Shown here: piece after piece, positions 10,210-14,502 of the stretch
Layout: each line of letters opens with the position of its first letter
Numbering within the stretch: position 1 is the stretch's first letter
From: Acidobacteriota bacterium
GTDB taxonomy: Bacteria > Acidobacteriota > UBA6911
DNA: 34,328 nt
Direction of reading: 5' to 3'
Assembly (NCBI GenBank): GCA_031271905.1
Contig: JAISUT010000013.1
Coordinates: forward strand, 1-34,328
Notes under the pieces: generated by a model
What the model saw: the letters and a program-made list of their open reading frames with translations, nothing else
What the model was told of the DNA's origin: nothing
Database searches by the model: none
Program-made: the position numbers and the translations under genes

Positions 10210-11292
10210 ATGTCCGTCATGGGACTTGATCGGTTCGATGGATTGGCCCGGTTCGGCAGGCTCGCCCGCCCCTTGGCGAAAACCGGGGCTTGCGGCGCGC
10301 TCCTGCTCTGCCTCTGCGCCTCGCCCTGCCTCCGCATACCGCCCCGCCTGGCGGCGCAAGCGGCGCAACCCGACGCCGCACCTGCGGAACCGCCCGCCGC
10401 GACCGCCACCATCCGCGTCAAGGTGGACATGGTGTCCCTGCCGGTCGCCGTGACCACGCGCGACGGCGAACATGTCAAGGACTTGGGGCGCGAGGATTTC
10501 GAGCTTCTCGAAAACGGCGTCCCGCAGCAGGTCGCGGGCTTCGACGACGCCGCCCGCCCCGTCTCGGTCGCGCTCATGCTGGACACGAGCGGCAGCACCG
10601 AGCGGCAGTTGTCGCGCATCCGCGCCGACGCCGTCCGCTTCATCCGCCTGCTGGGCGAGGACGACTCCCTCGCCGCGCTCTCCTTCGCCGACGAGGTCGT
10701 GCTCTGGGCGCCGTTCGACATCTACCGCCGGAAGGACGAGGACGCCTTCAAGAGGATCAAGCCGGGAGGCGGGAGCGCGGTCTACGAAGCCGTCTGGCTC
10801 GCGCTCGAGCAGGTGCTCAAGCTCGAATACGGCCGCAAGGCGCTGGTGTTGCTGAGCGACGGCGTGGACACCCGCAGCAGCACCGTCACGCGCCGCGAGA
10901 CGTTGGAGCTGGCGAAAAGGGGGGACGCCACGGTCTACTGCGTCTATTTCGACACCGGCAAGGACGGACGGCGGGGGCGCGGCGGGGGCGCGACGATGCC
11001 AGCCCCCCGCCTGCCCTTCCCCCGCCCCGGCGAGAAGCGCCCGGAATACGCCGCCGGGAGGGAATACCTCATGGACTTGGCGGCGGGCAGCGGCGGCCTT
11101 TTCATCGACGCCTCGAAAAACAAAGACCTCGGCGCCGCCTTCGCCAAAGTCCTCGACGGGCTGCGTTGCCAATACAGCCTCGGCTACTACCCCAAGGAGT
11201 TGCGCCACGACGGGAAGTTCCGCGAAGTCACCGTCAAGGTGAAGCGCCCCGGCCTCGTCGTCCGCGCCAAGCCGGGCTTCTACGACGACTGA
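10210..11292 (+). CDS. secreted VWA-domain protein (VWFA-related acidobacterial domain type)
   Basis: 360 residues with a long N-terminal export signal (hydrophobic ACGALLLCLCASPCLRI at about 29-45). The pre-VWA block TIRVKVDMVSLPVAVTTRDG, then LGREDFELLENGVPQQVAGF, is the signature that precedes VWA domains in Acidobacteriota proteins of the TIGR03436 type. The VWA domain follows with an intact MIDAS metal site, ALMLDTSGSTERQ (D-x-S-x-S), and VLLSDGVDTRS later. The C-terminus (YSLGYYPKELRHDGKFREVTVKVKRPGLVVRAKPGFY) is also typical. A Gly/Arg-rich insert (about residues 254-270) is variable. The role is unknown, probably metal-dependent adhesion or protein contact in the envelope. No good Shine-Dalgarno sequence precedes the ATG, so the exact start is uncertain. 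A paralogue lies at 12675-13661. Confidence 0.88.
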   Translation: MSVMGLDRFDGLARFGRLARPLAKTGACGALLLCLCASPCLRIPPRLAAQAAQPDAAPAEPPAATATIRVKVDMVSLPVAVTTRDGEHVKDLGREDFELLENGVPQQVAGFDDAARPVSVALMLDTSGSTERQLSRIRADAVRFIRLLGEDDSLAALSFADEVVLWAPFDIYRRKDEDAFKRIKPGGGSAVYEAVWLALEQVLKLEYGRKALVLLSDGVDTRSSTVTRRETLELAKRGDATVYCVYFDTGKDGRRGRGGGATMPAPRLPFPRPGEKRPEYAAGREYLMDLAAGSGGLFIDASKNKDLGAAFAKVLDGLRCQYSLGYYPKELRHDGKFREVTVKVKRPGLVVRAKPGFYDD

Positions 11293-11437
11293 CCCGGCGG
11301 ACGCCGCGAAGCGACCGGGGAATATTTCCCCGCCCGTCCCTTTCAGGACAGGGAAAATTTCCCCGCCCTGCCGATCCGCACCGACGCACAATCCGTGCAA
11401 CAAATTGAAAACAATGCCCTTACTATAAATTCAATGA

Positions 11438-11452
11438 TGGCACGGCAATTGC
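11438..11452 (+). promoter_or_regulatory. sigma-54 (RpoN) -24/-12 promoter upstream of the OmpA-type gene
   Basis: TGGCACG-GCAA-TTGC matches the sigma-54 consensus TGGCACG-N4-TTGC exactly, with GG and GC separated by the required 10 bases. It lies in an unusually AT-rich intergenic patch and would give a leader of about 98 nt. No enhancer-binding activator is encoded in the window. Confidence 0.75.
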
Positions 11453-11561
11453 GTATACAAGGAATTTGGATAGCGGCGACACCCGGCGCGGAGAAGCCCC
11501 GGTGCCCCGCGCATCCGCAAACTGGCTGAAACGCAGCGACTCGGAAACCGAAGGGGGAATT

Positions 11562-12626
11562 ATGAGAAAGACTTACCGCAACTCATCTCTGGCGCTCGTC
11601 GCGCTCATGTTGGCGCTCGCCTCGCAGGCGTTCGCGCAGGTCGGCGTATTGCAGGTGCCCGCCGGGCAGAAGATGAACCTCGAAGGGGTCGTCATAGACA
11701 AGGTCGGGGAGACCATGACGGTGCGCACGCCCGGCAACGCCACCTACCAGGTGTTCGTCAACGAAGGCACGACGATAAAAGAAAAGAAAAGCAATCCCTT
11801 CCGAGGTGCGAAGCAGTACACCCAGGCAGACCTGGTCCCCGGGTTGCAGGTGGAGGTGAAGGGGCTGGGGATGAATTCCGGGCTGCTCGCCGCCAGGGAG
11901 ATACACTTCAGGGACGACGACCACATCATCGCGCAGGCGATGGACACCCGCGTGGTCCCGGTCGAGAAGAACCTGCAAGACACCCAGGTCCGGCTGGGCG
12001 AGACGGAGCGGAACGCGGAACGCCTCTCCGGCCAGATCCAAGAGCTCACAGCCATAACCAACATCGTCAGGGACGACGCCAAGGCGGCGCAGGAGACGGC
12101 GGACTCGGCGGTCGCCATGGCGACGACCGCGCAAGGGACCGCCGACACAGCCAGACGCGGCGTGCGGGCGGCCAACGAGCGCATCACAATGCTGGACGAG
12201 TTTGACGTCAAGACCGCCACGACCATCTACTTCAAGTCGGGCAGCTCCGCGCTGGCGCGGGAATATCAGGACAGCCTCGGCTCGTTCGCAGACCAGATCC
12301 AGTCCGAGCGCGGCTACCTCATCGAGGTGGCGGGCTTCGCCTCCGCCGACGGCGACGCCGCATCCAACCGCCGGTTGAGCCAGCGGAGGGCGGAGGCGGT
12401 CATCCAGTACCTGGCGGAGAACTTCATGATCCCGATGCGGCGCTTCGTCACCCCGATGGGATACGGCGCCAGCCAGCCGGTCGGCGACAACCGCACCCGC
12501 GCGGGCCGCGAGGAGAACCGGCGCGTCGAAGTCCGCCTGCTGGTCAGCAAGGGCTTGACCAGCGCGCCGGACGAGGTCGCCTATGACGAGTATGGCGGCG
12601 GGACGCAGACCAGCCAAGCGTGGTAG
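11562..12626 (+). CDS. OmpA-family outer-membrane/peptidoglycan-binding protein with N-terminal OB-like domain
   Basis: 354 residues from ATG 11562, preceded by AAGGGGG; in-frame starts further upstream lack such a site. The signal peptide is MRKTYRNSSLALVALMLALASQAFA. Residues of about 30-125 form a beta-rich domain beginning MNLEGVVIDKVGETMTVRT, resembling DUF5666/OB-like modules. A helical, Gln/Ala/Thr-rich segment of about 140-220 (coiled-coil-like, QAMDTRVVPVEKNLQDTQ onward) follows, as a stalk. The C-terminal OmpA domain has TTIYFKSGSSALA, then IEVAGFASADGDAASNRRLSQRRAEAV and the NRRVEVRL ending. OmpA-C domains bind peptidoglycan diaminopimelate through conserved Asp/Arg residues (known), so this probably links outer membrane or periplasmic material to the wall. 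A sigma-54-like promoter precedes it. The downstream VWA gene begins 48 bp after its stop. Confidence 0.9.
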   Translation: MRKTYRNSSLALVALMLALASQAFAQVGVLQVPAGQKMNLEGVVIDKVGETMTVRTPGNATYQVFVNEGTTIKEKKSNPFRGAKQYTQADLVPGLQVEVKGLGMNSGLLAAREIHFRDDDHIIAQAMDTRVVPVEKNLQDTQVRLGETERNAERLSGQIQELTAITNIVRDDAKAAQETADSAVAMATTAQGTADTARRGVRAANERITMLDEFDVKTATTIYFKSGSSALAREYQDSLGSFADQIQSERGYLIEVAGFASADGDAASNRRLSQRRAEAVIQYLAENFMIPMRRFVTPMGYGASQPVGDNRTRAGREENRRVEVRLLVSKGLTSAPDEVAYDEYGGGTQTSQAW

Positions 12627-12674
12627 TTCTTTAATATCTACACAGCCTGCGGGTTCACGCCGATGAGGGACAGC

Positions 12675-13661
12675 ATGAGAGTCGCATGGATTCGCAGGCT
12701 GGCTGTGTTCTTCTGGTTGACGGCAGGATGCCTGTCCGCGCCTTTCACGCCGACGGCGGCGGCGCAGACGTTCCAAATCGCGGCGGACGTAGACAACCCC
12801 GAGCCGCTTTTCAGCCGCAACGTCATCCGCGTCAACACCAACCTCATCTCGGTGCCGGTCGCGGTCACGAACGCCGTCGGGCAAGGGGTTTTAGACCTCG
12901 GCATCGAGGACTTCCGCCTCACCGAGGACGGACGCGACGCGGAGATCTCCCGGCTCGCCGACTCCAGCCGCTCAAACCTGAACATGGCGCTGCTCTTCGA
13001 CCTTTCCGGCAGCGTCACCCCCAACTTCGAGTTCGAGCGGCAGGCGGCGATCGAGTTCCTGAAAACGATCTGGAAGCCGGGGGACTCGGTTTGCATCATC
13101 CCCTTCGACGCCGCCCCGGACGTCCGGCTCAAACATGGCGACAACCTCCAAGAGGCGATGTACGAGCTGCGCCAGTTGCATCCGACGCAGAAGACCACCG
13201 CGTTTTTCGACGCCGTCGCGCTCGCGTCGCAACTCCTGCAACAGTCGGCGACCGAGGAGACCCGGCAGGCGATAGTCGTCATCTCCGACGGCGCGGACAA
13301 CAACAGCAAGGCGGACATGGCCGCCGCCCTCGCGGAGATGCAGCGCCGCGACACGGTGTTCTACGCCATCAACCCGAGCGGCGCCTCGGTCCGCCTCAAC
13401 CGCCTCAACGTCCAAGGGCAGGAGAACCTGACGGCGCTGGCGGACGCCACCGGCGGGTCGGTGTTCGTCTCCGACCAGGCGGGCGACCTCGCGGGCATCT
13501 TCGGCAAGATCGCCCAAGAGCTGCGGGCGCAATACCTGCTGCACTACTACTCGCTCAGCTCCCGCATGGACGGGCGCTACCACCCGATCACGGTCTCCCT
13601 GCCGGAAAAGCCCGGCTTGCGCGTGCGGGCGCGCCCAGGGTTCCTCGCCTCCCCGAAATGA
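12675..13661 (+). CDS. second secreted VWA-domain protein (VWFA-related acidobacterial domain type)
   Basis: 328 residues from ATG 12675, chosen over ATG 12663 because GAGGGA lies at the correct distance before it. Signal peptide: MRVAWIRRLAVFFWLTAGCLS and onward to AAAQ. The pre-VWA block VIRVNTNLISVPVAVTNAVG and LGIEDFRLTEDGRDAEISRL matches the paralogue at 10210-11292. The MIDAS motif is ALLFDLSGSVTPN, with VVISDGADNNSKADM supplying the later metal-site residues. The C-terminal QYLLHYYSLSSRMDGRYHPITVSLPEKPGLRVRARPGFL closely parallels the paralogue's ending. The two VWA genes flank the OmpA-type gene, and this one is probably cotranscribed with it. Function is unknown; secretion and an intact metal site suggest an envelope binding role. 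Confidence 0.88.
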   Translation: MRVAWIRRLAVFFWLTAGCLSAPFTPTAAAQTFQIAADVDNPEPLFSRNVIRVNTNLISVPVAVTNAVGQGVLDLGIEDFRLTEDGRDAEISRLADSSRSNLNMALLFDLSGSVTPNFEFERQAAIEFLKTIWKPGDSVCIIPFDAAPDVRLKHGDNLQEAMYELRQLHPTQKTTAFFDAVALASQLLQQSATEETRQAIVVISDGADNNSKADMAAALAEMQRRDTVFYAINPSGASVRLNRLNVQGQENLTALADATGGSVFVSDQAGDLAGIFGKIAQELRAQYLLHYYSLSSRMDGRYHPITVSLPEKPGLRVRARPGFLASPK

Positions 13662-13722: not shown

Positions 13723-13731
13723 GTCGCGGTG

Positions 13732-14502
13732 ATGGATAAAAGGCGGTTCAAGACGGCGTTCATCTTGGGGGCGGGGTTGGGGACGCGCCTGCGCCCGCTG
13801 ACCGAGGACTGCCCCAAGCCGTTGCTGGAGGCGGGCGGTCGCCCCGTCGTCACCTACGCGATGGATCGGCTCATCGAGGCGGGGGTCGAGCGCTTCATCG
13901 TCAACACGCACCACCGCCCCGAGGTCTACGGGGAGAAGTTCCCCGACCGCCGCTGGCGCGGGCGCGAAATCGTCTTCCGCCACGAGCCGGAGCTGCTGGA
14001 CACCGCCGGCGGCTTGAAGAACGTCGAGGATCTGCTCGACGGGGACGAGGCCGTCATCTGCCACAACGGCGACGTCTACGCCGACTTCCCGCTCGCGGGG
14101 CTGGTCGCCTCCCACGAACGGCACCGCCCCGAGGCGACGCTGGCGTTGCGCAGCCGCGGCCCGCTCCTGAACGTCAGCGTGACCGGGGGTGACGACGGCG
14201 ACGGGGGCTGCGAGGTCTGCGACCTGCGCGGCGCCCTCGGCACCCCCGGCGCGCGCGACTGCCTCTTCACCGGCATCTACGCCATGGAGACATCCCTGCT
14301 CCGGCGCATCGAGGCGGGCAAGCCGGAGTCGATCGTCACCATCTTCCTGCAAAGCATCGCCGGACGGCGGGGTTCGATCAGGGGGAAGGTCGTCGATGAC
14401 GGCGTGTGGCTCGACATCGGCACCATCGACGCCTACGAGGGGCTGGCCAGATCCCTGCGGGCGCAAGCGCGGCGGAGGACGCCGACCCGGGAGGCCGAGT
14501 GA
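13732..14502 (+). CDS. murU: sugar-phosphate nucleotidyltransferase, candidate MurU (MurNAc-1-P uridylyltransferase)
   Basis: 256 residues with the NTP-transferase N-terminal signature AFILGAGLGTRLRPLTEDCPKPLL (nucleotide-binding GxGxRxxPLT...PKP). EIVFRHEPELLDTAGGLKN and VICHNGDVYADF (metal-binding Asp) follow, with DDGVWLDIGTIDAY near the end. The length and the coupling to a downstream kinase match the AmgK-MurU pair that recycles peptidoglycan MurNAc to UDP-MurNAc in Pseudomonas. Other sugar-1-phosphate nucleotidyltransferases (e.g. mannose-1-P guanylyltransferase) look similar, so the substrate is inferred from context. The stop codon overlaps the kinase start (GTGA). ATG 13732 is preferred over GTG 13729. 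It cytosolically activates the kinase product. Confidence 0.8.
   Translation: MDKRRFKTAFILGAGLGTRLRPLTEDCPKPLLEAGGRPVVTYAMDRLIEAGVERFIVNTHHRPEVYGEKFPDRRWRGREIVFRHEPELLDTAGGLKNVEDLLDGDEAVICHNGDVYADFPLAGLVASHERHRPEATLALRSRGPLLNVSVTGGDDGDGGCEVCDLRGALGTPGARDCLFTGIYAMETSLLRRIEAGKPESIVTIFLQSIAGRRGSIRGKVVDDGVWLDIGTIDAYEGLARSLRAQARRRTPTREAE

Follow-up and report, generated by a model that had tools for sequence, protein, structure and literature searches.

The DNA studied here, called the window below, is a stretch of 34,328 nucleotides on contig C41 of an Acidobacteriota genome of 3.4 Mb that is 99.8% complete. On its forward strand, at 11562–12626, lies an ompA-like gene encoding a protein of 354 aa, and the named close relatives of this gene are from Acidobacteria MAGs. 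The product has a C-terminal OmpA peptidoglycan-binding domain (PF00691, E = 5.4e-19, 68.8 bits against a cut-off of 27.2), with PF18914 and PF11839 remaining below their cut-offs. This domain is preceded by a signal peptide recognized by eye, a DUF5666-like segment and an alanine-zipper-like coiled coil, and Pfam detects no barrel family in the protein that would correspond to the N-terminal 8-strand barrel of E. coli OmpA. In view of this domain composition, the protein is described as OmpA-like and not as a copy of E. coli OmpA.

After a gap of 36 bp the ompA-like gene is followed at 12663–13661 (+) by a gene for a VWA-domain protein (TIGR03436, acidobact_VWFA, E = 4.7e-48). The sequence-only reading had spoken of an OmpA-VWA pair, and the VWA gene indeed adjoins ompA in all 10 genomes of the genus that were searched; it is probably the second gene of an operon. 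A nucleotidyltransferase gene (PF00483) at 13729–14502 (+), which follows ompA-vwa in most same-genus genomes, is a possible third. The window also contains a paralogue of the downstream VWA gene immediately upstream, at 10210–11292. Orthologues of this upstream gene lie several kb from ompA in relatives, and its placement beside ompA therefore looks local.

The sigma-54 promoter and its upstream palindromes

In the intergenic region between the stop of the upstream VWA gene at 11292 and the ompA-like ATG at 11562, a window scan located TGGCACGGCAATTGC at 11438–11452 (+), which matches the -24/-12 elements of sigma-54 promoters exactly in both sequence and spacing (TGGCACG-GCAA-TTGC). It is the single perfect TGGCACGN4TTGC match in the window, where a dinucleotide model predicts 0.024. 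When up to two mismatches are allowed the window has 12 matches against 13.4 expected, which is chance level, and only the perfect match is thus informative. The AT-rich patch described earlier is present as well, with 65–70% AT in the 40–50 bp preceding the site. Provided that the C at 11452 represents position -12, transcription would start near 11464 (+). A ribosome-binding site, agggggaa, is found at 11552–11559 (+). The best IHF-like match near the promoter is the weak sequence TTTCAATTTGTTG on the minus strand at 11398–11410, with one mismatch to WATCAANNNNTTR; we regard it as doubtful, and such sites are inconsistently kept in relatives. A riboswitch or structured RNA in the leader was rejected, as no Rfam match in the window reached the gathering level and only noise was seen around the site.

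The sequence-only reading had proposed looking for rpoN and enhancer-binding proteins (EBPs) elsewhere in the genome, with a lack of rpoN counting against its claim. The genome contains one copy of rpoN (PF04552, Sigma54_DBD, E = 8.5e-56) and 14 strong matches to EBPs. Perfect TGGCACGN4TTGC sites occur 12 times genome-wide, compared with 1 occurrence of the reversed pattern and ∼2.6 expected from a dinucleotide model based on a genome sample, and the motif is therefore enriched. The more relaxed pattern TGGCAYN5TTGC gives 23 matches against 4 for its control. Other perfect sites precede amtB, flagellar rod genes (flgF/G), a pilin gene, an EBP gene and genes for exported proteins (names assigned by eye from sequence), and these include classic sigma-54 targets.

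OmpA-like orthologues were found in all 10 genus genomes searched and in some genomes of the family and class; a wider scan of contigs added few further close orthologues. In each of the 10 genus genomes a -24/-12 element scoring 21 or 22 out of 22 in a weighted match lies upstream of the orthologue. Outside the genus the element also precedes ompA in G012 and G014 (family) and in G024, G027 and G037 (class). Judged by its sequence and conservation, the sigma-54 promoter upstream of the OmpA-like gene is genuine, as the earlier claim of RpoN-type sequence and spacing had held.

Not mentioned in that earlier claim is a palindrome of the type CxGGGAAWWWTTCCCxG (consensus CAGGGAAAWTTTCCCTG), which is located ∼90 bp upstream of the promoter. 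The window has two copies, a distal one, CGGGGAATATTTCCCCG, at 11316–11332 and a proximal one, CAGGGAAAATTTCCCCG, at 11349–11365, with centers at about -140 and -107 from the predicted start. They are 33 bp apart, or about three helical turns, and as candidate activator sites 1 and 2 they provide two putative sites with conserved spacing at an enhancer distance. In all 10 genus genomes the 17-bp palindrome starts 87–95 bp before the T of the -24 element, with the copy in G003 being degenerate; G002 also has two palindromes, 24 bp apart. A gapped alignment of the ten upstream regions, which come from related species so that their conservation is not fully independent, has as its only strongly conserved patches the palindrome, the -24/-12 element and, third, the ribosome-binding site with the ATG. 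Ungapped conservation anchored at -24 underrates the palindrome, as its spacing varies by a few bases. Both elements are absent from some ompA paralogues or second copies and from the distant orthologues L047, L048, L051, L053, L060 and L061.

The only two occurrences of the palindrome core GGGAANNNTTCCC in the whole 3.4-Mb genome are those in this region, compared with 0 for its reversed control; with one mismatch allowed, the genome count is near background. In the 400 bp preceding the other TGGCAYN5TTGC sites of this genome no palindrome of similar quality is present, and the regulon here may therefore comprise only the ompA-vwa operon. We also searched other genomes with a composite pattern consisting of the palindrome, 66–96 bp and TGGCAYN5TTGC, using the reversed pattern as control. 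This resulted in 19 matches in 38 genomes of the class and 25 matches in 396 genomes of the phylum, with no control match in either set. The class matches are mostly before ompA, and others precede genes for an MscS-type channel, small secreted proteins, a glycine-zipper protein, a Crp-type regulator and Hsp20 (identified by eye). Outside the class, L241 and L242 (G065 and G100) have the palindrome–promoter pair with 79 bp spacing before an Hsp20-type gene. In L170 and L175 (G004 and G005) the pair, here with a spacing of 108 bp, precedes a Crp-type regulator gene, which hints that some species have a regulatory cascade.

The candidate activator and its kinase

To identify an activator, the genome's own 14 EBPs were used as queries against regions of up to 20 kb surrounding the target promoters in relatives. 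Only one of them is encoded immediately beside a relative's target promoter. This is an NtrC-type response regulator at G000:C36:22872–24245 (locus L013), referred to here as the C36 regulator, which has receiver (PF00072), AAA+ (PF00158) and Fis-type HTH (PF02954) domains over their cut-offs and a GSFTGA variant of the GAFTGA-type loop. For none of the named NCBIfam equivalogs among the matches listed does its score reach the cut-off. Adjoining it is the gene for a membrane histidine kinase with HAMP, HisKA and HATPase domains, and a HAMP histidine kinase follows the regulator in at least 17 genomes. In the genome studied here, the regulator and kinase are followed by a gene for a TPR/YfiO-like protein.

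The regulator is present in all 10 genus genomes. Its orthologue adjoins the target promoter in divergent orientation in G008, G031 and G024 (ompA) and in G018 (mscS-like), and the same arrangement occurs outside the class in L244 (59% identity) and L245 (56% identity), both found by the DNA pattern alone. Furthermore, 10 of 19 regulator orthologues are preceded by a palindrome no more than 300 bp from their own start, compared with a mean of 0.18 and a maximum of 2 in 1000 shuffles. In the six divergent pairs the regulator's palindrome and that of its neighbor are partly the same site, and the two lines of evidence overlap to that extent. In G014, G027 and G037, which are incomplete genomes in which 27 candidates per genome were scored, ompA has both elements and no regulator match reached E ≤ 1e-110.

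The sequence-only reading had attributed the promoter to control by an EBP and had noted that no activator is encoded in the window. The first claim is supported by the near-constant spacing of the palindrome from a promoter kept throughout the genus and by an EBP gene that travels with the palindrome; the second agrees with the location of the candidate on contig C36. From these genomic associations the activator is most likely the C36 NtrC-type response regulator. The chief gap in the argument concerns the genome studied here, where the regulator is encoded at a site unlinked to ompA and the 1.5 kb preceding its gene contain no palindrome.

One further EBP, L012, was considered as the activator and rejected. 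It has one degenerate palindrome located 541 bp above its own sigma-54 site, which is the wrong distance, and its HTH resembles, we presume, those of flagellar regulators.

A proposed switch for the ompA-vwa operon

We propose that the sigma-54 promoter, the two palindromes and the C36 kinase and NtrC-family regulator together switch the ompA-like/vwa operon, a reading that we consider very probable. By analogy with the NtrC family, the membrane kinase on C36 would sense an envelope condition and phosphorylate the adjoining response regulator, oligomers of which would then bind the palindromes at 11316–11332 and 11349–11365. The AT-rich DNA between the palindromes and the promoter would loop, allowing the regulator ATPase to remodel the closed complex of sigma-54 polymerase at 11438–11452 and transcription to begin at the predicted start.

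OmpA-like genes are usually transcribed from ordinary sigma-70-type promoters, and one alternative is that ompA is expressed in this way with the -24/-12 match having arisen by chance. The chance-level number of loose matches in the window is in keeping with such an origin. This is contrasted by a perfect match that the window should contain far less than once and that is nevertheless kept in ten species, by the promoter–palindrome link with its 0 control matches, and by a search of 11290–12700 in which no sigma-70-like promoter was found; a chance match is scarcely credible. The palindrome could instead be bound by an unrelated repressor or activator, with the sigma-54 promoter being driven by an EBP bound elsewhere or acting from solution. 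An AT-rich palindrome of such length would suit several regulator families. Its distance to the -24/-12 element is nevertheless near-fixed across genomes and across different target genes, and it recurs upstream of genes belonging to a single EBP family, which makes an unrelated site quite improbable.

Somewhat less remote, though still unlikely, is that a different member of the 14 EBPs (for instance an NtrX-like or PrsR-like protein) is the activator and that the C36 regulator is a mere neighbor in some genomes. The number of EBPs available and the gap noted above leave room for this. In favor of the C36 regulator are its six divergent adjacencies and the palindromes upstream of 10 of 19 orthologues, and among the other 13 EBP genes none has a comparably good and well-placed palindrome, the best being that of L012.

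Known systems and further sigma-54 sites

The arrangement resembles that of NtrC at glnA and of ZraR in having a perfect -24/-12 element, paired palindromic enhancers ∼100–140 bp before the start, and an AAA+/Fis-type HTH response regulator with a partner kinase. It differs from them in the CAGGGAAAWTTTCCCTG palindrome and in the ompA-like/vwa main target, neither of which was found described. Similarity is also seen to the E. coli GlrK-QseG-GlrR system, where a HAMP kinase and a sigma-54 response regulator are co-encoded and the theme is again the envelope; the C36 regulator is 38% identical to GlrR and the kinase 24% identical to GlrK over 449 aa. The two systems differ in gene order, in targets and in the palindrome. 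The TPR/YfiO-like protein exhibits no similarity to QseG (no alignment, best E = 0.81), and the regulator scores 331.6 bits against the GlrR family, for which the cut-off is 763. Membership in this system was rejected on the lack of a QseG-type lipoprotein and on the score below the GlrR cut-off.

Control of PEP-CTERM genes by PrsK/PrsR and RpoN (PMC9850573, PMC1569441) provides another case of RpoN and a response regulator acting over exported proteins in environmental bacteria. The C36 regulator scores below the PEP_resp_reg cut-off. A separate EBP in this genome, L003, is presumably PrsR-like. Sigma-54 control had earlier been described as seldom assigned to OmpA-like genes. This claim of rarity is somewhat overstated, given an earlier proposal that sigma-54 generally controls the exterior of bacteria (PMC3162934). 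The present circuit shares with that proposal the theme of sigma-54 acting over envelope and exported products, and differs in that the text of the proposal mentions neither OmpA nor Acidobacteria.

The freely accessible article text that was searched contained nothing relevant on an Acidobacteriota sigma-54/OmpA circuit and no description of the palindrome, regulator or target. A GGGAAA/TTTCCC motif is likewise absent from the text of papers on Desulfovibrio EBPs, whose motifs sit in their figures and supplements. The parts are thus of a known kind, namely sigma-54 envelope control and NtrC-type regulators with enhancers, and it is the circuit that appears undescribed. Going further, we tentatively suggest, as a possibility slightly short of even, an Acidobacteriota-specific sigma-54 envelope-response system made up of the kinase, the NtrC-type regulator and the palindromic enhancer, with the OmpA-like/vwa operon as its core target. 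Elsewhere it might recruit the mscS-like gene, small secreted proteins, the Crp-type regulator and hsp20, and in this phylum it might correspond to the envelope stress responses Cpx, Rcs or sigma-E. Few studies have addressed regulation in Acidobacteriota, and here a kinase, a candidate activator, a DNA site and a main target form one testable unit. As the arrangement suggests, expression of a peptidoglycan-anchoring envelope protein need not be constitutive, and such a protein can be the on/off product of a strictly activator-dependent promoter.

Several other perfect sites in this genome have distinctive surroundings. Two of them are divergent and ∼430 bp apart (L021 and L022, G000:C7:48340–48785), one preceding a porin-like gene and the other the gene for EBP L015. 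This EBP has NTLTGA in place of the GAFTGA loop, and another, L011, has GAFTDA. At two further sites, L025 (G000:C26:21822–21836) and L030 (G000:C49:1199–1213), the -12 TTGC runs directly into a repeat, (CT)n and (AAGC)n respectively, ahead of genes for lipoprotein-like secreted proteins, and slippage of these repeats could turn the promoters on or off.
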